Positions 14,616 through 62,908 of a DNA stretch of 62,908 nt are shown here, piece after piece. The notes below the pieces were generated by a model, which was not told the DNA's origin, did no database searches, and worked only from the letters and a program-made list of their open reading frames with translations. The DNA comes from Bacillota bacterium (GTDB lineage: Bacteria; Bacillota; Clostridia; Oscillospirales; Oscillospiraceae), in NCBI GenBank assembly GCA_030535235.1, contig JAUNCL010000014.1, positions 1-62,908 of the forward strand, written 5' to 3'. Both the position numbers and the translations under genes were made by a program. Position 1 is the first letter of the stretch. Each line of letters opens with the position of its first letter.

Positions 14616-14961
14616 AAAAAAGACCTCCGGCCGAAGCCGGAGGTTTCAGCCCTATGTAGGGAACGGGCATGCCCGTTCCGTTTGAAAGACTGCGGATACC
14701 CTCTGCGTGGGTATTCGCCTCCGGCGGGGTCCCCATTTCTTTCAAGAAATGGGGGAAAGAAGACCAGGGGAAACCCCTGGACCCCTTTGAGGTGGGTAGT
14801 AATTTGCCGGATTTTGGGTTTTGTTTTTACCTGGCCTGTGGCCCTTTGTCGGTGCGCCGTCCACGGCGCACCCACCGGCTGGGTGCGCGGGGGCGTGGTT
14901 TCTGACCTTTGGGCGACGGTGGGAGAGAGCTGAAAAAAGACCTCCGGCCGAAGCCGGAGGT
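14616..14961. repeat. Dispersed structured repeat, copy 1, flanked by duplicated terminator hairpins
   Basis: The 29-base sequence at 14616-14644 (six A then GACCTCCGGC-CGAA-GCCGGAGGT) recurs exactly at 14933-14961. Between them lie 288 bases without a gene, rich in inverted repeats: ACGGGCATGCCCGT, ATTTCTTTCAAGAAAT, CCAGGGG-AAA-CCCCTGG, GGTGCGCCGT-CCACGGCGCACC. The same core, in the same order, is found at about 58380-58650. The duplicated outer sequence is the terminator of the minus-strand gene at 14988. TTTCAGC and GCTGAAA at the two inner ends form a weak terminal inverted repeat. Confidence 0.85.
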
Positions 14962-23180: not shown

Positions 23181-23333
23181 CTCTCTTGCCTCTCCCAGAG
23201 GGAGAGGTGGCTTCGGCCATCAGGCCGAAGACGGAGAGGGCGCTCCCGCCTGACATACTGCGTTATTCTGTCCGACAGGGCATTGCCCTCTCAGTCAGCG
23301 CTTCGCGCTGCCAGCTCCCCCAGAGGGGGAGCC
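23181..23333. repeat. Dispersed 150-base hairpin repeat, family B, copy 1
   Basis: Starts with CTCTCCC-AGA-GGGAGAG, continues with GGCTTCGGCC and a GCCGAAG hairpin, and ends with GCTGCCAGCTCCCC and GGGGGAGCC. The same order and length (about 155 bases) recurs at 27431-27585. The 10-base sequence CTTACGATTC occurs on both sides (23167-23176 and 23348-23357), which looks like a target duplication. Confidence 0.7.
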
Positions 23334-23376
23334 AGGAAGATGAAATACTTACGATTCGCCTGAAAGGAGGCCCGTT

Positions 23377-51086: not shown

Positions 51087-51119
51087 GTGTGTTGTTTTGT
51101 TCCCTGCGGAACGATGTTT

Positions 51120-51148
51120 ATCATACACGAAATCCTGCCATTTGTCAA
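51120..51148 (-). promoter_or_regulatory. Promoter of tRNA-Val
   Basis: On the minus strand TTGACA and TATGAT with a 17-base spacer, about 34 bases before the tRNA. Confidence 0.8.
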
Positions 51149-51202
51149 CAACTTTTTCACAAAAATTTATTTTTTCTCCCCGCCGGGGCGGTCGCCGGAA
51201 AA

Positions 51203-51231
51203 TTGACAAGGCCGTTGCCGCCTTTTATAAT
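51203..51231 (+). promoter_or_regulatory. Promoter of the AlbA-domain gene
   Basis: Consensus TTGACA and TATAAT with a 17-base spacer, 33 bases before the start codon. Confidence 0.9.
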
Positions 51232-51264
51232 GGAGACAACAACGATCCGGCAGGAGGGTTTCCC

Positions 51265-52650
51265 ATGATCGACCTGAACAACATCATGCGTTATCACGAA
51301 AACAATCGCATTGAGGCCAAGAAGGCTGCCGGCGGCTTCCCCCACAGCCTGTGGGAGACCTACTCCGCCTTTGCCAACACCATCGGCGGTCTGATCCTGC
51401 TGGGGGTGGAGGAGTCCCGGGACAAGGAGCTGCGGGTCACCGGGGTCCCCGACGCCCAGGGGTATATAGATATTATCTGGCAGACGGTGAACGACCCGGC
51501 CAGGGTCAGCGTCAACATCCTCGCCCCGGAGGATGTGGCCGTCCACAGCATCGACGGCAAGGAGGTCCTGGTGATCTCCGTCCCCCGGGCGGGCCGACGC
51601 CAGCGGCCGGTGTACATTGGGGACAGTCCTTTTACCGGCTCCTACCGGCGGGACGGGGAAGGGGACTACCACTGCTCTGCCGAGGAGGTTCGGGCCATGC
51701 TCCGGGACCGGGACGACGCCCCGGCGGACCTGGCGGTGCTGGAGGCCCGGTCCCCGGCGGATCTCTCCGCCGCCACCCTCCGGCAGTTCCGGCTCCTGAT
51801 GGCCATGCGCCGGCCCGATCACCCCTGGAACTACCTGCCCGACGGGGAATTCCTCCCCAATGCCGGTATTTTGGGCTATGGGAAGGACGAGACCTCCCTC
51901 TATCCCACCCTGGCGGGTCTGCTCCTGCTGGGCCGCCGGGGGCCCTTGAAGGAGGTCTTTCCCCAGTTCCGGCTGACCTACCAGGAGACCGACACCGGGT
52001 TCTCCCTGGCCACCAACCGCCCCGGCTGCCCGGAGAACCTTTTTGAGTTCTACACCGCTGTCTCCCGGCGTCTCACAGCCGTTTCGGCCCTGCTGGCGGA
52101 GGGGTCCGCCCCCCGGGAGGAGCTGGCGGCCGCCATGCGGGAGGCGGTGCTCAACGCCATCCTCCACGCCGACTACTTCGGCGGCGGCGGGCTGACCATC
52201 CAGCGGACGGACACCGAGCTGCAGGTCACCAACGGGGGCCTGCTCCGGGTCCCGCCGGACCGGGCCAAGGCGGGCGGGGCTGCCGACCCCCGCAACGTGG
52301 TCCTGACCCGGCTCTTCTCCCTTGTAAAACTGGGCTCCGGCGCCGGCAAGGGCCTGAAAGGGATCTATCACCTGTGGGCCCAGCAGGGGTGGAGCGCCCC
52401 GGTGCTGTCCGAGACCTTTCAGGCCGGGGTCACCAGCCTGTCCCTGCCCCTGCCCCGGCGGGAGTTCTCCCCGGAGGATCTCACCCGGCAGCTGGTGGCC
52501 GAGTACCTCACGGACGCCGTCTCCGCCACCGCCGACGGGCTGGCGGCGGGGCTGGGCTTGTCCCACCGGGAGGTCCAATCCGCCCTGGACGCCCTGACGG
52601 AGCGCGGCCTGGTGGTGGAAAAGGAGGACGGCTACCACCTGCGGGCATGA
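51265..52650 (+). CDS. AlbA_2 (Schlafen-like) domain protein with GHKL-type ATPase region
   Basis: 461 residues. The N-terminal AlbA_2 domain (about 8-150: ENNRIEAKKAAGGFPHSLWETYSA, split, and FANTIGGLILLGVEE) is followed by an HATPase_c4-like region (MREAVLNAILHADY) and a C-terminal winged helix (LAAGLGLSHREVQSALDALTERGLV). Often annotated as RecG-like or transcription regulator; role unknown, sometimes defence-associated. CAGGAGGG precedes ATG 51265. Monocistronic. Confidence 0.88.
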   Translation: MIDLNNIMRYHENNRIEAKKAAGGFPHSLWETYSAFANTIGGLILLGVEESRDKELRVTGVPDAQGYIDIIWQTVNDPARVSVNILAPEDVAVHSIDGKEVLVISVPRAGRRQRPVYIGDSPFTGSYRRDGEGDYHCSAEEVRAMLRDRDDAPADLAVLEARSPADLSAATLRQFRLLMAMRRPDHPWNYLPDGEFLPNAGILGYGKDETSLYPTLAGLLLLGRRGPLKEVFPQFRLTYQETDTGFSLATNRPGCPENLFEFYTAVSRRLTAVSALLAEGSAPREELAAAMREAVLNAILHADYFGGGGLTIQRTDTELQVTNGGLLRVPPDRAKAGGAADPRNVVLTRLFSLVKLGSGAGKGLKGIYHLWAQQGWSAPVLSETFQAGVTSLSLPLPRREFSPEDLTRQLVAEYLTDAVSATADGLAAGLGLSHREVQSALDALTERGLVVEKEDGYHLRA

Positions 52651-52741: not shown

Positions 52742-52815
52742 CCCCCGGGCAAAGCCCGAGGGGTGAGTTTGTGTTTGGATTGTAAGAGACTTACAATTTG
52801 TTCCGAATCAGGGGT
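52742..52815 (-). repeat. Inverted repeat at the 3' flank of the expressed SLH gene (pair member of 61330-61404)
   Basis: Read on the minus strand, the stop-codon region and the following 70 bases are nearly identical to the 3' flank of the other SLH gene. Shared parts are CCCTGATTC, GAACAAATTG, the palindrome TTGTAAG-TCT-CTTACAA, CAAACACAAA and CACCCCTCGGGCTT. The last part forms a GC-rich hairpin that is probably the terminator. Confidence 0.85.
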
Positions 52816-55540
52816 TCAGGTGAGATTGCTTCTGAATCAGCATAGTGACAGAGCCAGCACCATAGGAAACATCCAGTTCACTGTCATCGGCATCGAAGAT
52901 AACGGCAACGACAACAGTCTTGGAGCCGTCCACATCGGTGACAATGTAGGCATTGGGGATGTAGTAGGTATTTCCGCCATCCACAAACTCGTTTGCCTTA
53001 GTGACAGTATCCTTGGAACCCTCGGCACCCTCGGTCTTGTCATCGTTGACAGCGATAAAGACACAATCCTTATCGAAGTCATAGGTATACTCGGTACCAT
53101 TGCCGGACTTATAGGCAATAGTGTCGCCATTCACGCCAGTGATTGCAACCATACCGGTGGAGCCAGCTGCGCTAGGACCGATCTTACCAACAATAGCAAC
53201 TTCATCGATGTACTTGCCATCCTCAGAATAGGAAATCACGTTACCAGCAACAGCGCCAGTGCTATCGTTGGAGGCATCGACATACACGGTCTTCACATCA
53301 CCGGAGCCAGTCCAGATATCATAAGCAGCCTTCTTTTCGCCGTCAACCTCGCCCTGATAGGGATTAGCAACCAGGTAGCCATACAGCTTGTCGTTGGAAG
53401 CGCCGGGAACCTTGGTGCCCGCAGTGCCAGTGTACAGAACGGCAAACTTGACATAATCAATGCCGTTAGAAGACTTAGTCAGAATCTGAGTATCGCCAGC
53501 AGCAAATGCAATTGCAGGCTCATCAGCCCAATTCTTGACCTGCTTACCGGTCAGAACCTTGGTGGAGTCAGCAGTCTGGACGAACACAACAGCGTCATCA
53601 GCGATAGACTTCTTACCAATTTTCTGATCCTGGTAAGTGGTTGTATAGCTGGTGCTGCTCTTGCTATAGGTAGTAGTTGCGGGAGTTACGATCCAGTCCA
53701 TACCGACCTTATTATTTGCGCTGACAGCCTTAATGTCATAAGTGCCGTCAGACAGCTTGGAATAAGTGACCATCTTGTGAGCAAGAGCCAGAACGGCGGA
53801 CAGGTCATAACCAGTCTTACCAGTTTTCAGCTTCTCACCATTCAGCTTAGAAACCTTTACTTCGCCGTTGGTGTCATCCTGGAAGTACATACGAACCTTG
53901 ACGGTAATTTCGCTATCACCGACCAGATTATCAGCAACAGTATCCACAGCGCTGATGTAAGCAACGTTGGTTGCCGCAGCAGCGGTCTCCTCAGCATTGA
54001 CAACAACGTTGCCAACCATGATGAAATCATAGGTGTTGCCGGTAGTAACGGAGATCACATTACCCTCGTTCTTAGCCAGCTTATACCAGTTGCCGGAAAC
54101 CTTCACTTCGTTGGTGCGGGTAGCATCAGCCTTAGCGGAGGTAACGGTCAGCTTGGAGATCAGGTCATTGTCGGAAGAACGGTTAGCGTCGTCAATGACG
54201 GTAACATAGTCATCCTTAGCAATGCCGGTGTAAACATCGGCATCCTCGAACTTGATGGTGGCATTGGCCTCACCAGCAGTCAGGTAGTCCAGGGTCACGG
54301 AAGTCTTAGAGACAGCAGTAACCTTAGCAACCTGAGCGGGGGTCAGGACAGCTACGTCCACCTTGCCGTTACCATCGTTGTCAATCAGCTTGATGCTGGA
54401 AGCGGCGGTGGTGGGGGTGATGGTGCCCTTGACAGCATCATTTGCCAGGTCAGTGTAAGACTTAGTAGCAGTCAGCTGCTGAGCGACATAAACCACGTTA
54501 GTGGTCTGGGAGGTGGTGCCCTCAATCTTGTAGGAAGTGCCGTCCAGCTTCACCTTGTCGGTGCCGTCCAGCTGGAAATCACCGAGAAGTCCAGTAGCGA
54601 CTACCTTGGAATCCTCGTCAGCATAGACGCCATAAACGGTGTCTTCGGTAGCGGTCTGCTTGTGCAGGAGCTGAATCTCCTGGCCCAGCAGATCAGAGAC
54701 ATCCGCAGAAATCTTGTTGTAGGTGATATTCTTCTGATTGGTGTCCTTCAGGCTAGTGGTGATGGTGTAGTAATCCTTGCCATCGACCTTGGTGCAGGAC
54801 AGCAGGATTCCAGCATCTTCCTTGTCGGCCTCGTACTTGTCCTTCAGAAGAGTGATCTTCTTGAAGTTACCGTCAACCTTGTCCTGGAGGACCAGCTTGG
54901 AAGTCAGCTGGCCGTTCTCGGTGACCAGGTTGTACTTGTACTCCACCTCGTAAGCGTTCAGAGCGTTCCAGACCATCTGAGCGGCGTTGTCACGGGACAG
55001 AGCCTGGGAGGGATCCATACCAGCCAGGTCGGCATACAGGCCCTTAGAAGAAGCGTCCACGTTGACGTTCACTTCCCAAGCAGCGCCGGTATAGCCCTGG
55101 TTATCGGAATTGTAGCCCAGAGCGATCAGCAGCATCTTGGCGAACTGAGTGCCGGTGACGTTGCCGTTGGGGTTGAACTTGCCGCCGCCGACGCCGGCCA
55201 CGATACCCTGTGCCACGCAGGACTCAATGTAGCCCTCGGCCCAGTGGCCCTTGGTGTCGGTGAAGGAAGCGGTGGCGCTGGTGCCCAGAGTGGGCTCTTC
55301 GCCGCCGTTCAGTGCCACGCAGATCATCTTGCAAGCTTCTGCGCGGGTGATGGTGCCTTCGGGCTTGAAGGAACCGTCGGTGTAGCCGTTGATGATGTTC
55401 AGTGCTGCACAAGCATCAACTGCCTCGGTGTTCTTGATCTTGGACTGATCAGAGAACGCTGCGCCTGCGCCCACGACCATGACGGACAGCATCACGGCCA
55501 TGCAGAGCACCAGGCTCAGAACCTTTTTCAGGTTTCTCAT
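52808..55540 (-). CDS. S-layer homology (SLH) domain surface protein, expressed copy
   Basis: 910 residues. Signal peptide (about 1-28), then SLH repeats within about 29-200 (ALNIINGYTDGSFKPEG, GHWAEGYIESC, GYTG/DNAAQMVWNAL). SLH modules bind pyruvylated wall polymers. The remaining 700 residues are Thr/Lys/Asp/Val-rich beta-type repeats typical of S-layer subunits, with a calcium-loop-like DNDGNGKVD. AAAGGAGG lies before ATG 55540, partly paired with CCTC just before the ATG. Promoter and a 118-base leader lie in the central segment. Homologous over its length to the opposite-facing gene at 58807. Confidence 0.93.
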   Translation of the reverse strand: MRNLKKVLSLVLCMAVMLSVMVVGAGAAFSDQSKIKNTEAVDACAALNIINGYTDGSFKPEGTITRAEACKMICVALNGGEEPTLGTSATASFTDTKGHWAEGYIESCVAQGIVAGVGGGKFNPNGNVTGTQFAKMLLIALGYNSDNQGYTGAAWEVNVNVDASSKGLYADLAGMDPSQALSRDNAAQMVWNALNAYEVEYKYNLVTENGQLTSKLVLQDKVDGNFKKITLLKDKYEADKEDAGILLSCTKVDGKDYYTITTSLKDTNQKNITYNKISADVSDLLGQEIQLLHKQTATEDTVYGVYADEDSKVVATGLLGDFQLDGTDKVKLDGTSYKIEGTTSQTTNVVYVAQQLTATKSYTDLANDAVKGTITPTTAASSIKLIDNDGNGKVDVAVLTPAQVAKVTAVSKTSVTLDYLTAGEANATIKFEDADVYTGIAKDDYVTVIDDANRSSDNDLISKLTVTSAKADATRTNEVKVSGNWYKLAKNEGNVISVTTGNTYDFIMVGNVVVNAEETAAAATNVAYISAVDTVADNLVGDSEITVKVRMYFQDDTNGEVKVSKLNGEKLKTGKTGYDLSAVLALAHKMVTYSKLSDGTYDIKAVSANNKVGMDWIVTPATTTYSKSSTSYTTTYQDQKIGKKSIADDAVVFVQTADSTKVLTGKQVKNWADEPAIAFAAGDTQILTKSSNGIDYVKFAVLYTGTAGTKVPGASNDKLYGYLVANPYQGEVDGEKKAAYDIWTGSGDVKTVYVDASNDSTGAVAGNVISYSEDGKYIDEVAIVGKIGPSAAGSTGMVAITGVNGDTIAYKSGNGTEYTYDFDKDCVFIAVNDDKTEGAEGSKDTVTKANEFVDGGNTYYIPNAYIVTDVDGSKTVVVAVIFDADDSELDVSYGAGSVTMLIQKQSHLNP
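55425..55525 (-). repeat. 101-base perfect inverted repeat, arm 1 (with 58834-58934)
   Basis: From codon 6 of the expressed SLH gene, 101 bases covering the signal peptide and first SLH residues are identical to 58834-58934 on the opposite strand. Similarity continues at lower identity through the SLH region. Identity stops five codons after the ATG, right at the border with the central segment. Confidence 0.9.
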
Positions 55541-55623
55541 AGAGGTTTGCCTCCTTTAAAAATTTTTTGAACAGTTTCCCCTCTCCGCTTTCCGGCACAC
55601 ATACTGTGGCATGCCGTAGCAGT

Positions 55624-55693
55624 ATCTGCGTCGGTGCGCAGATCGGTGAATTTGTTCTATGGCTACTATACGAGAACTTTTGCCATTTGTAAA
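55624..55693 (-). promoter_or_regulatory. Promoter and leader hairpin of the expressed SLH gene
   Basis: On the minus strand TTTACA and TATAGT with a 17-base spacer (55665-55693), giving a leader of about 118 bases. The leader holds the hairpin ATCTGCG-CACCGA-CGCAGAT (55624-55643). Upstream, three TGTAAC/GTTACA half-sites at 55709-55745 could be an operator. Confidence 0.7.
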
Positions 55694-55766
55694 GAGAATT
55701 GGACGCTTTGTAACACAACAGTAATAAAGTTACAAAACGGTTACAAGCAAAAACGCCGCCGCGCAG

Positions 55767-55891
55767 TTGACAAACCGCGCGGCGATGCGTATACTATAGG
55801 CAAGAGGGGTCGGTCAGTGATTGGCCCACTGTTTCGGTTTTATTTCATAGTAACCGCTTGGGTGCCAGCCAGACGGTTACTTCTTTTTTCT
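55767..55891 (+). ncRNA. Candidate small RNA between the SLH gene and gap
   Basis: A consensus plus-strand promoter (TTGACA, 17 bases, TATACT; 55767-55795) has no gene downstream. About 50 bases after the start point a hairpin GTAACCG-N17-CGGTTAC is followed by TTCTTTTTTC. Transcript about 90 bases. On the opposite strand a 13-codon frame ends in Asp-Asp-Arg-Lys-Lys-Lys, like the tail of Fst-type toxins, so this may be the antitoxin RNA of an eroded type I toxin-antitoxin locus. Confidence 0.5.
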
Positions 55892-55902
55892 ATCGTCTAA
55901 GT

Positions 55903-55935
55903 AAGCGGGCTGACCCATATCGGGTCAGCCCGCTT
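55903..55935. terminator. Strong hairpin downstream of gap
   Basis: Stem AAGCGGGCTGACCC with GGGTCAGCCCGCTT. No clear T run on either side; it lies 33 bases after the gap stop codon and may end that transcript or stabilise its 3' end. Confidence 0.55.
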
Positions 55936-55967
55936 GCACACATTATATAATAATATAATATATCCGA

Positions 55968-57174
<1,207 letters not shown>

Positions 57175-57245
57175 TACGCAGTTATGACATGATATTTCCC
57201 GGCTGATCCGGGAATCCTAATCCCATTTTCCAAGGAGTTGACGCT

Positions 57246-58310
57246 ATGGATCCTATCACTTCCCGCCTGGAGCCCATATTTGGCAGCTTTCCCGAGGCTG
57301 TGATCTATCTTTCCGGCGGCCGGGCAGCCTATTCCAACGAACCCGGGTCCCTTCTGCTGCAGAGCTGCCCTTCGGATCTGCTCTTCGCTATGGCAGAGCA
57401 CCCCGGCGGATCCATGGAGATCGCCTTGGGTCAGGACCTGTATCGGGTGACGGTGTCCCCCTTTGACGGCGGCGTGCTGCTGGTGCTGCGCCCGCTGACC
57501 CAGGGGGAGGAGAAACCACATCCCTTCTCCCACGCCGTCTACCGGATGCGGGAGTGCCTGTCCAATTTCAGCGCGGTCCAGTGGCGGATGAAACGGGTCC
57601 TGGAGGAGAAAACGCTGGCCGACGAGTTTGAGCAGGATCTGGCCAACCAGAACCGGCTGATCTACCAGATGCTGCGGCTGACCCGGCAGGCCGAGCTCAC
57701 CCAGGAGCTGAATAATAAGGAATTCCCCCGGGAGGAGGGCTTCGACCTGGCCATGGTCTGCCAGGGCATGGCCGAGGAGGCCGGCTGGATGGCCGACCTG
57801 GCCGGGGTCCGGTTCTCCTATTCTTCCAACGCGGAAAACCTGGCCTTCCAGGGGAGCAAATCCCTGCTGACCCAGATGCTCCTGGCCCTGGTGTCCAACA
57901 GCATCCGGGCCGCCGGCAAGGGGGGCGTGGCCGAGATGCGGTTCCACGCGGAGAACGGCCGGGTCATCATCTCCCTCCGGGACAGCGGCATGGGGATCCC
58001 CGAGGACCGGATGGCTACCCTGTTTTCCGGGGACGCCCCGGAGGATATTCCCCGTCCCGGCGAGGGGGCCGGCCTGGGCCTGTACAACGCCCAGCGGATC
58101 GCGGTCCTCCACGGCGGCGTGCTCATCGCCCAGAGCGGCCAGGAGGGCGGGACCAGTCTGGTGGTCTCTCTGCCCATCGTGACCCCCTCCAGCGTGCCGG
58201 CCAGAAACAACCCCGGGTATGACAACCTGGGGGGCTATTCGCCGGTGCGCATCGAGCTGAGCGACGTGCTGCCCTGGCAGGCCTTTGTCCCTGCCGGCAA
58301 AGAAGAATAA
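57246..58310 (+). CDS. Soluble GHKL-ATPase sensor kinase-like protein
   Basis: 354 residues without membrane segments. The C-terminal third is a histidine-kinase ATPase: N box ALVSNSIRAAG, DSGMGIP and GEGAGLGLYNAQRI. The N-terminal part looks like a PAS-type domain. In the dimerisation region there is no HE/HD-type phosphoacceptor motif; the only candidate His lies in FSHAVYRMRE. AAGGAGTTG precedes the ATG. No partner regulator is adjacent. Ends at the terminator that is duplicated around the repeat element. Confidence 0.8.
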   Translation: MDPITSRLEPIFGSFPEAVIYLSGGRAAYSNEPGSLLLQSCPSDLLFAMAEHPGGSMEIALGQDLYRVTVSPFDGGVLLVLRPLTQGEEKPHPFSHAVYRMRECLSNFSAVQWRMKRVLEEKTLADEFEQDLANQNRLIYQMLRLTRQAELTQELNNKEFPREEGFDLAMVCQGMAEEAGWMADLAGVRFSYSSNAENLAFQGSKSLLTQMLLALVSNSIRAAGKGGVAEMRFHAENGRVIISLRDSGMGIPEDRMATLFSGDAPEDIPRPGEGAGLGLYNAQRIAVLHGGVLIAQSGQEGGTSLVVSLPIVTPSSVPARNNPGYDNLGGYSPVRIELSDVLPWQAFVPAGKEE

Positions 58311-58315
58311 TCGAA

Positions 58316-58342
58316 GAAAAGCGCCCGGTTTCGGGCGCTTTT
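58316..58342 (+). terminator. Terminator of the kinase-like gene (proximal copy)
   Basis: GAAAAGCGCCCG with CGGGCGCTTTTC; six bases after the stop codon. A second identical hairpin at 58710-58736 lies between it and the SLH gene. Confidence 0.88.
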
Positions 58343-58736
58343 CAGTCTGTCGAAAAAGTCATGTAATATACCGAACAACCCCATGTAGGGAACGGGCATG
58401 CCCGTTCCGCTTGCCACGGTTAGGATATCCGTAACGTGGGTTTGCGCCTCCGGCGGGGCCCCATTTCTTTCAAGAAATGGGGAAAAGAAGACCAGGGGTT
58501 CCCCCTGGATCCCGGCGAGGTGGGTGGTGATTTGCCGGGTTTGCGTGCTGATTTTTCCCTGGCCTGCGGCCCTTTGTCGGCAGGTCGACCATAGCGCGCC
58601 CACCGGCTGGGCGCGCAGGGGCGTGGTTTCAGCCCTTCGGGTGTCGGCGGGGGCAAGCCCCCGCCCTACGGCGTGACAGCTAATGTTGCAAGGCTTTTTC
58701 GACAAGCTCAAAAGCGCCCGGTTTCGGGCGCTTTTC
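58317..58736. repeat. Dispersed structured repeat, copy 2, flanked by duplicated terminator hairpins
   Basis: The 27 bases at 58317-58343 (AAAAGCGCCCG-GTTT-CGGGCGCTTTTC) recur exactly at 58710-58736. The left copy keeps the upstream arm CGAAG and the right copy the downstream arm CTTCG of one original terminator. The 366 bases between end in terminal inverted repeats (TGTCGAAAAAG and CTTTTTCGACA). Inside is the core shared with the copy at 14616: CATGTAGGG, ACGGGCATGCCCGT, ATTTCTTTCAAGAAAT, CCCTTTGTCGG, CACCGGCTGGG. No gene inside. Confidence 0.88.
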
Positions 58737-58806
58737 TTCGTCCAGATATTGGAAAGCTTTCGCACGGGTTCTGTGGGAAAAGTGTGGGGCGTGGCGTGAA
58801 AAGGAC

Positions 58807-61326
58807 TTGGATCTCATACGGCGGCGCCTGAAGAAGGTTCTGAGCCTGGTGCTCTGCATGGCCGTGATGCTGTCCGTCATGGTCGTGGGCGCAGGCGCAG
58901 CGTTCTCTGATCAGTCCAAGATCAAGAACACCGAAGCCGTTGATATGTGCTCTGCACTGAACATCATCAACGGTTACGAAGATGGTTCCTTCAAGCCTGA
59001 AGGTAACATCACCCGCGCAGAAGCTTGCAAGATGATTTGCATCGCTCTGAACGGCGGCAAGGAGCCCGTCCTGGGCACCAACGCCACTCCCAGCTTCACT
59101 GACATCAAGGGTCACTGGGCTGAGGGCTACATTGAGTATTGCTACTCCGAAGGCATCGTTGCAGGTGTCGGCGGTGGCAAGTTCGACCCCGCTGGTAACG
59201 TGACCGGCTCCCAGTTTGCAAAGATGCTGTTGATCGCACTGGGCTATCGTGCAGACCACGAGAAGTTCACTGGTGCTGCTTGGGAAGTCAACGTCAACGT
59301 GAAGGCCACCCAGAAGGACCTGTATGATGAGCTGGAGACCATGGATCCCTCTGTGGCTCTGACCCGTGACAATGCCGCTCAGATGGTTTGGAACGCTCTG
59401 AACGCAAATGAGGTTGCGTATGAGTACACTCTGGCTACCGAGAACGGTCAGTTGGTGTCCAAGGTCACTGTAAAAGACGTCACCAATCCTAAGAACCTGA
59501 TGACTGACAAGTATGGTGCAAACACCGACGAACCTGGTGTGCTGACCAAGGTCACCAAGGACGAGAACAAGGATACCTACAACCTGTACATTGGCTTTGG
59601 AGAGAAGCCTTCCTATACCAAGGTTGCTGCTGACTACTCTGACCTGATCGGCCAGAATGTTAAGGTTGTCAACAAGGCTTCCGACAAGGTTCTGGGTGTT
59701 TTCGCTGATGAAGATTGCGCTGTGATCGCTGAAGGCGTTGTTGGTCAGCTGAAGCTGGACAGCAGGGCTACCGACAAGTCCATCAAGCTGGACGGCACTG
59801 CTTATGACCTGGACCAGGCTGCAAATGCTACTGTCTGCTACCTGACCAACGGCATTGCAGCCCAGGGCAAGCTCAGTGACCAGATGATTAATGATCAGGC
59901 TGCTTGGGGTGTCAAACTGATTGACAACGACGGTGACGGCGATGTTAATGTGGCTGTTCTGACCAAGGTTACTGTTGCAAAGATTACCTATGCAAATGCT
60001 ACCGGTATCCGTGTCGACGCCACTGCTTATGATTTCGATGACCACACCATCTATGATGGCGCTGCTAAGGATGACTGGGCTGTGATCGTTGACAAGGCTT
60101 ACACCGCTGACGGCAAGGCTATCATCACCAAGGCTGACACTGTTTCCGGCAAGGTTTCTTCCGTCAAGACTGACAGCCAGGGCAACACCACCGAGGTCCG
60201 TATTGATGGCACTTGGTACAAGGCAGCTATCCCTGACGACACTACTAAGATCAAGGACAAGGTCGATCTGGTCGTCTACGAAGGCCTGTACTTCTACGCT
60301 CCTACCATGACCACCAGCCTGGATATCGCTGTTGTCACTGGTGTTGGCAACTACGACATGATGAACAAGACCGCTTCCTATAAGCTGATGTTTGCTGACG
60401 GCAAGGAAGAAGTGGTTCCCGTTGAGAAGTGGGATAGCTACACAGGCAGTGACCTTTCCAATGGCGCTTGGACCAATTATATGGTCAGCTATGAAATTGA
60501 CGATGGAAACTATACTCTGACTACTGTTCCTAACGGCGAGAAGATCGATACTACCGACTATACTGGTGTTAAGGTCGCTGCTGCTGCTAACGACGGTTAC
60601 ACTAAGAACATTTCTGCCGTTGAGATCGGTGATAAGGACTATGATATCGCCGATAATGCGATGGTCGTCTTCTATGATGGCGATGACTATACCTACATGA
60701 CCGGTGCGGACCTGCTGAAGAAGAACAATATTGCCTTCACTGCTAACAAGACCATCTTCGCTGCTGTTGACGGCAACGAGATCGCTGCACTGTTTGCTCA
60801 GACTGGTACCAGCATCAGCTCTGGCGATGAGCAGTATGGTTACATCGTGGCTGTTGGCGAAGAGCTGAACAAGGACGGCGATACCAAGCTGTACATCGAC
60901 GTTATTGTGAACGGTGAGAAGAAGACTAACGTTGAGACCGATAAGGATTCCGTTGGTTCCTTCGCAAAGGGCGATGTCATCACCTACACCATGGACGGCG
61001 ACGTGATGAACATTACCAAGGTCACTGAAAGCTTCCCCAACAAGGCTGCTATCAAGGAATTCAACAGCACTCGCGTGATTTTCTATAACGCAACCTATAA
61101 TCAGCCTGACTACCGTGTGACTCTGGCAGACGATGTTGTTGTCATCGCAATTGACAGCGACGACGCTGATAATGTCCTCTATGCAGGCAAGGATCTGATG
61201 GAAGCAAATGCTATCTTCAACGATTCCGGTGACCAGACCGGCTGGCAGAAGAATGCAATGTATCATCTGGATGACAACGAGATCGACGTGATCTTTGTTG
61301 AGATCGACGCTGATTCTCACTTCTAA
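58807..61326 (+). CDS. S-layer homology domain surface protein, apparently silent second copy
   Basis: 839 residues if read from a TTG at 58807. Residues from about 8 on match the other SLH protein: identical signal peptide, SLH repeats to about 195, then increasing divergence in the S-layer body (calcium-like DNDGDGDVN retained) and a similar SHF/SHL end. The first codons (DLIRRR) are unrelated to the partner's MRNL start. No ATG occurs before the signal peptide, the AAAAGGA element touches the TTG, no promoter is visible between 58737 and 58806, and two terminators shield it from the upstream gene. Best read as a donor copy that needs inversion or recombination to be expressed. Confidence 0.85.
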   Translation: MDLIRRRLKKVLSLVLCMAVMLSVMVVGAGAAFSDQSKIKNTEAVDMCSALNIINGYEDGSFKPEGNITRAEACKMICIALNGGKEPVLGTNATPSFTDIKGHWAEGYIEYCYSEGIVAGVGGGKFDPAGNVTGSQFAKMLLIALGYRADHEKFTGAAWEVNVNVKATQKDLYDELETMDPSVALTRDNAAQMVWNALNANEVAYEYTLATENGQLVSKVTVKDVTNPKNLMTDKYGANTDEPGVLTKVTKDENKDTYNLYIGFGEKPSYTKVAADYSDLIGQNVKVVNKASDKVLGVFADEDCAVIAEGVVGQLKLDSRATDKSIKLDGTAYDLDQAANATVCYLTNGIAAQGKLSDQMINDQAAWGVKLIDNDGDGDVNVAVLTKVTVAKITYANATGIRVDATAYDFDDHTIYDGAAKDDWAVIVDKAYTADGKAIITKADTVSGKVSSVKTDSQGNTTEVRIDGTWYKAAIPDDTTKIKDKVDLVVYEGLYFYAPTMTTSLDIAVVTGVGNYDMMNKTASYKLMFADGKEEVVPVEKWDSYTGSDLSNGAWTNYMVSYEIDDGNYTLTTVPNGEKIDTTDYTGVKVAAAANDGYTKNISAVEIGDKDYDIADNAMVVFYDGDDYTYMTGADLLKKNNIAFTANKTIFAAVDGNEIAALFAQTGTSISSGDEQYGYIVAVGEELNKDGDTKLYIDVIVNGEKKTNVETDKDSVGSFAKGDVITYTMDGDVMNITKVTESFPNKAAIKEFNSTRVIFYNATYNQPDYRVTLADDVVVIAIDSDDADNVLYAGKDLMEANAIFNDSGDQTGWQKNAMYHLDDNEIDVIFVEIDADSHF
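58834..58934 (+). repeat. 101-base perfect inverted repeat, arm 2 (with 55425-55525)
   Basis: Identical on the opposite strand to 55425-55525; one mismatch borders it upstream (CTGAAG versus CTGAAA) after which homology ends. Confidence 0.9.
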
Positions 61327-61329
61327 TCA

Positions 61330-61404
61330 TCCCTGATTCAGAACAAATTGTAAGTCTCTTACAATTCAAACACAAATCCACCCCTCGGGCTTAGCCGGGT
61401 GGCC
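61330..61404 (+). repeat. Inverted repeat at the 3' flank of the silent SLH gene
   Basis: About 70 bases with only a handful of mismatches to the 3' flank of the other SLH gene (52742-52815), in inverted orientation, including the palindrome TTGTAAG-TCT-CTTACAA and CACCCCTCGGGCTT. Confidence 0.85.
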
Positions 61405-61469: not shown

Positions 61470-62908
61470 TCACGCCGTTTCCTCTTTCATCAGTTCATTC
61501 AGCGGGATGAAGCCCAGCCCGTCGTACTTGATGTGGATGTGCTGCACCCGCTTTCCGCTGGATTTGTCCGGTGCGTCCACATAGATAGCGGACACCAGCT
61601 CCCGCAGAGCGTAGCCGTCCAGCTCGTCGATGCCCACATACTTGTGCGCCGTCTGAATGAACTTCTCAATGTTTTCGTTCTGTCGTTCCTGTACTTCAAT
61701 TTCCTGCCGCAAGGTGATGCACTCGGCCTCCAACTGCTTCTGCTCCGTTTCATAGGTCAGACTCAGCATATCGAAGCGGTCATCACTCAGCCGCCCGCTG
61801 GCGTTGTCCTCGTAAATCCTGATGAACAGCCGTTTCAGCTCAGCGATGCGGTTTTCGTTCCGTTCCAACCGTTTCCTGCGGATGCGGATCTGCTCACCGC
61901 TTTCCAACCGGAGCTGTTCTTCCATTACTGTGCGGAAATGTGCCTCATGACGCAGAATATAGCCCGTCACAGCCTGAATGTGTTTCAGAACCACACACTC
62001 CAAAACCTTGACCCGAATGAAGTGTCCCTTGCACTTCTCCTTGTCCTTGCGGTGCAGCGAACAATCAAAGAAGTCCTGTGTGGGATCGCCGTTGTTGGAC
62101 GAGCCATAGTTCATTTTGGAACCGCAGTCGGCGCAGTAGACAAGCCCGGAAAAGATGCTGCTTCGGCCTGTGCGGGTCATTCGGTGCCGCTGCTGCCGGA
62201 TTTCCTGCACCTTCTCAAACACAGCGTCCTCAATGATACGCTCATGGGTGTTTGGAAAGATGGCCTGTTTCTCAATGGGCGTTTCCCGCTGCTTTTTGTC
62301 CCAGATGGAGTTGGTATAGGTCTTGAAGTTCACCGTACAGCCTGTGTACTCCCGCCGCTCCAGAATGTTGACCACACTGCTGTCCTTCCATCCATACGGA
62401 TTTTCCGGTTTCTTATTTGGACACTTTATTCCTTGCAGTGCTTTATATGCGGTGGGGGTCAGCACCTTGTCCGCTTTCAGTTGGTTGGCGATCTGCTTGG
62501 GACCCCGCCCCTCCATGCACATGGAGAAGATGCGCTTCACCACATCAGCGGCCACCGGGTCAACCACCCAGCGGCGGGGATTCTCCGGGTCTTTTACATA
62601 GCCATAGGGCACGTTGGTGGTCAGAGGTATGCCTCGCTCACCCTTGGCTTTCTGGACGGCTCTGATCTTGCGGCTGGTGTCCCGGGCATAGAACTCGTTA
62701 AACCAGTTCTTGATACCCGCAAAATCGTTGTCCACCCGGTTGGGGTCGATGGTGTCGTAGTTGTCATTGATGGCAATGAAGCGGACACCGTTCTGTGGGA
62801 AGGTGAAGTTGGTGTAAAGCCCGGTCAGTGCGGAGTTACGTCCCAACCGTGAGAGGTCTTCTTGTGTCAAGTAGGAACTAAAAAAATTTTGAGAATTTAC
62901 AAGCCGTT
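61470..62908 (-). CDS. Large serine recombinase, 5' part missing or outside the window
   Basis: At least 466 residues. It holds the end of the resolvase catalytic domain (DLSRLGRNSALTG, RFIAINDNYDT, DTSRKIRA), a Recombinase domain (VPYGYVKDPENP), the zinc ribbon (YCADCGSKMNY) and a C-terminal coiled coil. The region with the nucleophile serine should lie about 70 residues upstream. The frame stays open to the window edge, but the last 13 visible codons are AT-rich and do not look like this family, so 5' truncation is possible. Such recombinases drive integrative elements; it ends 66 bases from the SLH 3' repeat. Confidence 0.85.
   Translation of the reverse strand, partial: RLVNSQNFFSSYLTQEDLSRLGRNSALTGLYTNFTFPQNGVRFIAINDNYDTIDPNRVDNDFAGIKNWFNEFYARDTSRKIRAVQKAKGERGIPLTTNVPYGYVKDPENPRRWVVDPVAADVVKRIFSMCMEGRGPKQIANQLKADKVLTPTAYKALQGIKCPNKKPENPYGWKDSSVVNILERREYTGCTVNFKTYTNSIWDKKQRETPIEKQAIFPNTHERIIEDAVFEKVQEIRQQRHRMTRTGRSSIFSGLVYCADCGSKMNYGSSNNGDPTQDFFDCSLHRKDKEKCKGHFIRVKVLECVVLKHIQAVTGYILRHEAHFRTVMEEQLRLESGEQIRIRRKRLERNENRIAELKRLFIRIYEDNASGRLSDDRFDMLSLTYETEQKQLEAECITLRQEIEVQERQNENIEKFIQTAHKYVGIDELDGYALRELVSAIYVDAPDKSSGKRVQHIHIKYDGLGFIPLNELMKEETA

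Follow-up and report, generated by a model that had tools for sequence, protein, structure and literature searches.

The stretch of DNA analysed here (the window) is an entire contig of 62,908 bases (G000:C24) from a genome of 2.25 Mb in 51 contigs (G000), which a kinase-based comparison places in the genus of Evtepia gabavorous. It carries a locus with two SLH S-layer-like genes on opposite strands, and we put the probability at roughly 80% that this locus is an S-layer switch working by recombination at the 5' arm of the genes and the expression site of a multi-cassette variation system. The proposed mechanism would rest on one promoter, leader, ribosome binding site, ATG and first codons (MRN), which stand beside the gap gene, and on silent SLH genes that have none of these parts and start with the same ~100 bp, encoding a signal-peptide-like start. 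Recombination of the arm of the expressed gene with an inverted silent arm would swap the bodies. In the window, the segment 55526-58833 would flip, the promoter would come to drive the gene at 58.8 kb and the old gene would turn start-less. Three points are inferred: that the bodies are exchanged by inversion, that this takes place in growing cells and that the coat is altered as a result. An earlier note on this DNA had proposed a two-gene switch; its recombination reading is supported, and its two-gene scope is too narrow, there being one expression site and up to 11 silent cassettes per genome. The features of the locus are as follows.

52808-55540, minus strand: S-layer-like SLH gene of 910 aa that occupies the expression site and has promoter, leader, ribosome binding site and ATG; Pfam SLH
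58834-61326, plus strand: silent SLH cassette, an open frame of 830 aa without ribosome binding site or ATG of its own; Pfam SLH
55425-55525, minus strand: putative recombination arm, 101-bp perfect inverted repeat, its inner edge bearing AAGGTTCTG
58834-58934, plus strand: partner arm, 101 bp, perfect
54896-55532, minus strand: wider inverted repeat, 637 nucleotides (nt), 82%, in the region coding for the SLH anchor
58827-59463, plus strand: partner of the wider inverted repeat, 637 nt, 82%
55526-58833, no strand: predicted invertible segment of 3.3 kb, with promoter, gap and kinase-like gene
55665-55693, minus strand: sigma-70-like promoter TTTACA-17-TATAGT, its hexamers conserved in five species
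55592-55616, minus strand: stretch CGGCATGCCACAGTATGTGTGCCGG, conserved in the leader alignment, a possible hairpin
55550-55557, minus strand: ribosome binding site AAAGGAGG, with the ATG at 55540-55538
55968-56981, minus strand: gap, glyceraldehyde-3-phosphate dehydrogenase (a longer mechanical open reading frame reaches 57146)
57246-58310, plus strand: orphan kinase-like gene, HATPase_c, with an orthologue of 64-81% in six other species
58773-58779, plus strand: single GTGGGAA box, 61 nt ahead of the arm
52742-52813, plus strand: conserved 3' element past the stop codon, 72 nt, 90% inverted partner of 61331-61402
61331-61402, plus strand: conserved 3' element of the silent cassette, 72 nt, 90% partner of 52742-52813

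The two SLH frames were found as the earlier note had described them, at 52808-55540 and running to 61326, and both contain Pfam SLH domains. The start that it gave to the second gene, 58807, is to be dropped: the mechanical open reading frame begins there with TTG, and the sequence is homologous to the expressed gene only from about 58830 on, past the ATG AGA AAC codons. The inverted repeat is exact, as had been claimed, with 101 perfect base pairs and one mismatch at either edge, a length of identity far beyond chance. The promoter, leader, ribosome binding site and ATG had been placed on the 55.5-kb side alone, and this was borne out by reading both 5' ends and by a promoter scan; the ribosome binding site and ATG are confined to that side, and the plus-strand gene has nothing comparable. 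The scan, covering 55500-58900, gave five promoter-like matches where 1.3 were expected. Besides the match at 55693-55665, which is the closest to the minus-strand gene, there is one on the minus strand at 55981 and three on the plus strand at 55767, 56996 and 57140, all three upstream of the kinase gene. No Rfam match was found in 55400-59000.

It is highly improbable that the silent genes use unrecognised promoters of their own and alternative starts such as the TTG at 58807. A weak purine tract does accompany this TTG ahead of the frame, and some silent frames of another genome (G003) are open upstream to mechanical starts, but the scan gave no plus-strand promoter-like site between 57168 and 58900, and what the regions upstream of silent copies have in common between species is a set of boxes (see below), not a ribosome binding site or start. 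When 55526-58833 is flipped by script, the promoter is followed by an in-frame protein of 835 residues, MRNLK plus 830 residues, and the silent leader by the gene expressed before.

The genus set consists of 16 genomes, G000 (the window genome) to G015, of which G003 is taken as E. gabavorous KLE1738. A kinase-alignment scan of named genomes gave six loci, including those of E. gabavorous KLE1738 and 'Candidatus Evtepia faecigallinarum'; the others are metagenome-assembled genomes under different names. A kinase orthologue at an identity of at least 64% is present in seven of the 16 genomes, and five of these seven (G000, G002, G003, G010 and G011) have the same layout: SLH gene with ATG and leader (minus), gap (minus), kinase (plus), start-less SLH (plus). 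In G006 the kinase and a start-less SLH copy lie on a contig that begins inside gap, and in G005 gap and kinase have no SLH match adjacent. The leader of the expression site can be aligned over five species, with promoter hexamers, leader stretch and ribosome binding site all kept. That the segment contains gap and the kinase-like gene is a conserved feature, not one peculiar to the window contig. In the more distant G015, an SLH gene with ATG adjoins gap and both SLH copies read have an ATG, as does the single SLH copy read in each of G012 and G013. One exact DNA pattern, sought in 220 genomes of the family, matched four of them, namely G000, G004 and one place each in G082 and G192; the sample held four genomes of the genus (G000, G004, G013 and G015), G013 and G015 are without the exact pattern, and such a search says nothing on analogous systems with different sequences.

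The silent bodies form an archive that extends well beyond the window pair. At E 1e-12, 13 of the 16 genomes match a probe made from the SLH N-terminus, and start-less SLH copies with the core GAAGAAGGTTCTG, their junctions read, occur in nine: two in G000, one arm at a contig end in G001, five and a truncated one in G002, 11 in G003, three in G004, three in G006, six in G010, three in G011 and two in G014. G003 holds 12 arms and 12 bodies, counted after merging contig overlaps of 215-216 bp; one has a ribosome binding site and ATG and 11 are silent, a tally that leaves aside a 58% SLH match on G003:C5, the start of which was not read. Frames are open as far as readable in the 28 silent copies analysed from five genomes; the start-less copies of G001, G004, G006 and G014 stand outside this analysis and those of arm identity, box counts and substitution rates. 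Fourteen silent copies reach a stop on their own contig (2490-3030 nt), 13 of them without evident break and one, L111+75 of G003, with a late frameshift. Over codons 40-185 of the complete silent copies, mean nonsynonymous divergence (dN) is 0.18 and mean synonymous divergence (dS) 0.73, with dN<dS in 38 of 38 within-genome pairs, which are not independent, 36 of them coming from G003.

Such figures make it very unlikely that the locus is a fossil, with old duplicated SLH genes of which one is expressed and the others decay. The frameshifted copy in G003, the truncated cassette in G002 and the scarcity of boxes in G000 are what decay would leave; set against them are 13 of 14 complete copies unbroken despite having no start, the uniform excess of dS over dN, and arms that are near-identical within genomes. 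The encoded proteins, about 830-1010 aa long, have SLH domains by Pfam and a signal peptide as judged by eye. Their first 60 alignment columns average ~90% identity, and past column 180 identity falls to 24-32% in G000 and 19-48% in G003: the proteins consist of a constant SLH anchor and a variable remainder. Genes of ABC transporters (ABC_sub_bind, BPD_transp_2, Peripla_BP_6) lie between head-to-head silent arms in G003 (L108, L112, L121 and L124), and permease sequence like that of G003 was seen by eye on cassette contigs of G010 and G011.

The strongest sequence evidence for arm recombination comes from the arms themselves. Arm identity was compared for 33 of 38 copies from five genomes, after dropping two overlapping contig ends of G003 and three G000 copies with leaders of their own on contig C6. 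Over bases 0-66, identity is 99.7% for the 131 pairs from one genome and 85.7% for the 397 pairs from different genomes; at third codon positions the values are 99.1 and 75.2, a difference matched by none of 2000 label shuffles. Identity of codons for the same amino acid, within versus between genomes, is 0.99 against 0.75 at codons 0-20, 0.68 against 0.62 at codons 60-80 and 0.65 against 0.63 at codons 80-100; it then rises to 0.79-0.84 against 0.66-0.72 at codons 100-140 and reaches parity at 140-180. The higher identity within genomes would be a sign of continuing exchange, and the profile suggests that this exchange is strongest at the 5' edge and has left a fainter second signal in the SLH anchor. 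Taken with the layout conserved in five of seven kinase genomes, the open frames of start-less cassettes and the in-frame product of the flip, the homogenised arms uphold the earlier claim that arm recombination would put the promoter before the other body.

Homologous recombination of the RecA type could by itself produce these patterns through the ~100-bp arms, with any boxes or dedicated recombinase irrelevant, and this explanation is a strong contender at a little under even odds. Arm identity declines from the 5' edge over ~100 bp, as it would predict, and the 637-nt repeat gives ample homology. Further points on both sides of it come from the sequences around the arms, described below.

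We regard it as unlikely that exchange runs without inversion, by non-reciprocal gene conversion in which silent copies act as donors to the expression site. The window genome has six close copies of the SLH 5' end: the window pair, one on C34 and three on C6. The copy on C34 (G000:C34:23687, plus strand) answers a check that the earlier note had proposed, a search for further cassettes with the same 5' 100 bases: its first ~100 bp are identical to those of the window pair, and it is a third start-less cassette, without leader, ribosome binding site or ATG. The three C6 copies have their own leader and ATG, with one or two mismatches in the first 29 bases. Donors on other contigs, such as C34, would suit conversion, as would homogenised arms and the shared 3' element, which is present in most G000 copies. 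Conserved 3' ends were considered as conversion boundaries and set aside, since they are not seen in G003: its complete bodies have no common 3' end, and conversion would want a right boundary. Many neighbouring arms stand, moreover, head-to-head, as required for inversion. On C6 the three SLH genes lie on one strand (G000:C6:75.4-90.7 kb; L008, L009) with similar 3' flanks, two of which share 95% over 330 bp. At 23283-23336 of the window, ~29 kb from the SLH genes of the locus, ~50 bp match the 3' flanks of the C6 copies at 88-92%.

Two sequence signatures mark the silent copies. The first is a run of 12 bases, AAGAAGGTTCTG, kept in start-less copies despite differing signal peptides (G004 and G006 versus G000, G002, G003, G010, G011 and G014). 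The second is the box GTGGGAA, which is found in the 100 nt preceding the arm at 22 of 25 silent copies, at none of five expression sites and at none of the three C6 copies, in positions at or about a base from -72, -61 and -50 relative to the arm. Its background rate is 0.0094 per 100 nt, computed with the cassettes themselves included. The 25 copies are those left from 28 listed after exclusion of three with <80 nt upstream, one of which (L111+75) does carry a box; those without a box are G000:C34, G011:C100 and G011:C102. Silent cassettes of G002, G003 and G010 with enough upstream sequence have one to three boxes each, and between these species identity is 75% in box columns against 42% in others.

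A genus-wide search for three phased boxes gave 34 rows in six of the 16 genomes, and none with the reversed pattern as control. Eighteen rows have two mismatches or fewer, in four genomes (G001, G002, G003 and G010), and the core follows in all 18. The other 16 rows have three mismatches; 13 represent cassettes, or the same boxes read in a shifted register, and those outside known cassettes are two in G009, not read, and one in G000:C8, read and coreless. There are no triple-box rows in G004, G006, G011 and G014, though all have start-less copies. Three of the 18 sites were new relative to the search by protein: an arm at a contig end in each of G001 and G002, and a truncated G002 cassette (L191:349-849, G002:C113) that passes from boxes and core, in frame, into the final ~140 residues of a body. 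A homologous G003 body has core-like sequence, CAGAAGACCGTACTG, at the position matching this joint, so that the truncated cassette, a single case, suggests breakage at the core. Repeats of GTGGG phased at 11 bp resemble MraZ operators. Regulation through MraZ boxes was rejected as an explanation: PF02381 has matches in none of the five genomes tested, against seven of 14 control genomes.

These signatures sit badly with recombination by RecA alone, in that the 12-bp core is unchanged across different signal peptides (G004 and G006 versus G003), triple boxes occur almost solely at silent copies and in fixed phase, and the core of the truncated cassette runs directly into the distal body where its homologue has core-like sequence. 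A candidate for site-specific crossing is a tyrosine recombinase. Its gene in G003 (PF00589, E 5.4e-21) ends 62 nt ahead of a silent core, and the G011 orthologue, which has the kinase on one side and the arm on the other, stops 78 nt ahead of the core. Orthologues of 73-90% are present in G002, G004, G006, G007, G010 and G011, making seven of 16 genomes with G003. At E 1e-20 there is none in G000, G001, G005, G008, G009, G012 or G014, and G013 and G015 have merely 27-30% matches. The gene adjoins the arm in two genomes (G003 and G011) and shares a contig with cassettes in G002 and G010.

Residues R188, R306-H307, G328-H329 and Y339 are invariant in the seven orthologues. We take them to be active-site motifs, with Y303 where H is usual. 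The best PDB match is 6emy, 'Int protein', presumably the Int of Tn1549. The enzyme resembles the tyrosine integrases of conjugative transposons in its catalytic domain, and in G003 and G011 its gene adjoins repeats and core; in contrast to theirs, the Evtepia orthologues recur at 73-90% in six other genomes, with none in the window genome. Upstream of the recombinase ATG (L108:1770-1840) is an inverted repeat, CCTCCTGTTGTAGGAT...ACAACAGGAGG, which would hide the ribosome site; its pairing is kept in G011 with changed bases and is less regular in G002. It is possibly a translational lock.

In species with both boxes and recombinase, the tyrosine recombinase would cut at the GAAGAAGGTTCTG core, guided by the GTGGGAA boxes, and homologous exchange would maintain the arms; for those species we lean slightly towards this combination. 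For the window species, homologous recombination alone is just as likely. Core and boxes argue for site-specific crossing, and graded homogenisation and the absence of the recombinase from G000 and G001 argue for homologous crossing; both may act. A bolder and more doubtful proposal, to which we give distinctly less than even odds, is that a transposon-type tyrosine integrase became the selector of S-layer cassettes. Silent cassettes would then be attP-like, with GTGGGAA arm boxes spaced by one turn of the helix and the core within signal-peptide codons, and the expression site attB-like, with the core only. The expression site would always pair with a silent copy, and the housekeeping gap and the kinase would move with the promoter. 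Its odds are lowered by G001, which has boxes without the orthologue, and by G004 and G006, where orthologue and start-less copies are present but triple boxes are not.

Several further observations weigh against the switch as we have drawn it. The 14-16 kb read on either side of the recombinase gene in G004, G006 and G007 contain no SLH match, and the 400 nt downstream of it in G002 and G010 no boxes. The mismatch of boxes and orthologue extends to G007 (orthologue present, triple boxes absent) and to G014, which has start-less copies with neither triple boxes nor orthologue; boxes are missing from two of three silent copies in G011; and G000, without the orthologue, has one box on the kinase side and none at C34. 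The link between boxes and recombinase is suggestive; it lacks generality and breaks down in the window genome, the arms of which are perfect yet unaccompanied by an orthologue, a point that, like the boxes of G001, favours RecA alone. G000 has ten other PF00589 matches, none of them on C24 or C34. A site-specific recombinase alone is insufficient for homogenisation of ~100-bp arms, and the renewed excess of within-genome identity at codons 100-140 indicates that homogenisation reaches beyond the arm. Most genus genomes are fragmented, with many contigs ending within arms. In G003 a single contig end has several possible partners for joining, which is usual assembler behaviour at a shared repeat and so not by itself proof of inversion. 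Beside the outer flank, tagA/tmk, no close cassette was found in the stretches read from eight relatives, two of whose contigs are cut short, and orientation is therefore not comparable between species; G011 has a 35% SLH match near this flank.

Other elements neighbour the locus. A large serine recombinase (61470-62870, minus strand; Recombinase, Zn_ribbon_recom, DUF4368), its N-terminus cut by the contig end, is separated by ~70 nt from the silent cassette's 3' element. As a candidate invertase it was rejected, having no match in the kinase-locus stretches of G002, G003, G005, G006, G010 and G011, where the search was made, and being cut by the contig end. A 278-bp interspersed repeat occurs at 58376-58651 and 14647-14923 (81%), parts of it also matching L009:8950-9063. 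The copy at 58376-58651 is flanked by two copies of a terminator-like hairpin of the kinase (58317-58343 and 58710-58736), the position taken by the tyrosine recombinase in G011. Immediately beside the locus, 51097-52650 (plus strand) encodes a protein with an SLFN/AlbA_2 domain.

The arrangement has three structural features of known invertible-promoter S-layer loci, with one start region for several genes, intact promoterless homologues and inverted, identical 5' regions. Inversion of slpA/slpB in Lactobacillus acidophilus was reportedly described by Boot et al. in 1996, and the sap locus of Campylobacter fetus, it is said, by Dworkin and Blaser in the same year. The earlier note had drawn the parallel to sap, which fits, and had not named the closest two-gene parallel, L. 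acidophilus. There, silent slpB lacks a promoter, and slpA and slpB, on one chromosomal segment, are interchanged by inversion (PMC6015585). The window pair is alike in having two S-layer-like genes on one segment, the silent one without promoter. Evtepia differs in its SLH-anchored proteins, in the gap and kinase-like genes within the segment, in its phased boxes, in an inversion that is predicted, and in its silent cassettes, as many as 11 of them, which are spread over several contigs.

In C. fetus, only the sap copy directly downstream of the promoter is transcribed (PMC3887049). A second source describes the sap locus as hard to assemble and predicts eight sapA copies in two completed genomes of subsp. 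testudinum (PMC4943207). Several S-layer-like homologues with one promoter are common to both systems, likened here by arrangement and not by protein homology; C. fetus belongs to another phylum and its sap copies share a locus with sapCDEF, whereas in Evtepia the cassettes, 12 in G003, are spread over several contigs and are accompanied by boxes and, in some species, by a neighbouring integrase gene. In the vsa system of Mycoplasma pulmonis, an expression site gives promoter and amino terminus, and promoterless silent genes with recombination sites are brought in by site-specific inversion (PMC4534519). Its expression site, like that proposed here, supplies promoter and N-terminus to silent bodies; unlike it, vsa is not S-layer, and the likeness is one of arrangement, not of recombinase or site homology.

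In searches of the open-licence literature, titles and opening abstracts gave no account of Evtepia S-layer switching or SLH cassette inversion. Within those searches, four things are apparently new: the occurrence of SLH-type coat genes in such a system in a clostridial genus of the gut, the archive of as many as 11 silent bodies on several contigs, the housekeeping gene within the segment and the phased boxes at silent copies. The box-plus-core signature finds cassettes overlooked by protein search (three sites), and the state of a population could be read off metagenomic reads at the arms. If our reading is true, these gut commensals draw on as many as a dozen archived bodies to vary their outermost protein coat. 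E. gabavorous KLE1738, which we take to be a cultured and harmless strain, would then let one ask why commensals change coats, be it for escape from phage, escape from IgA or niche fit.

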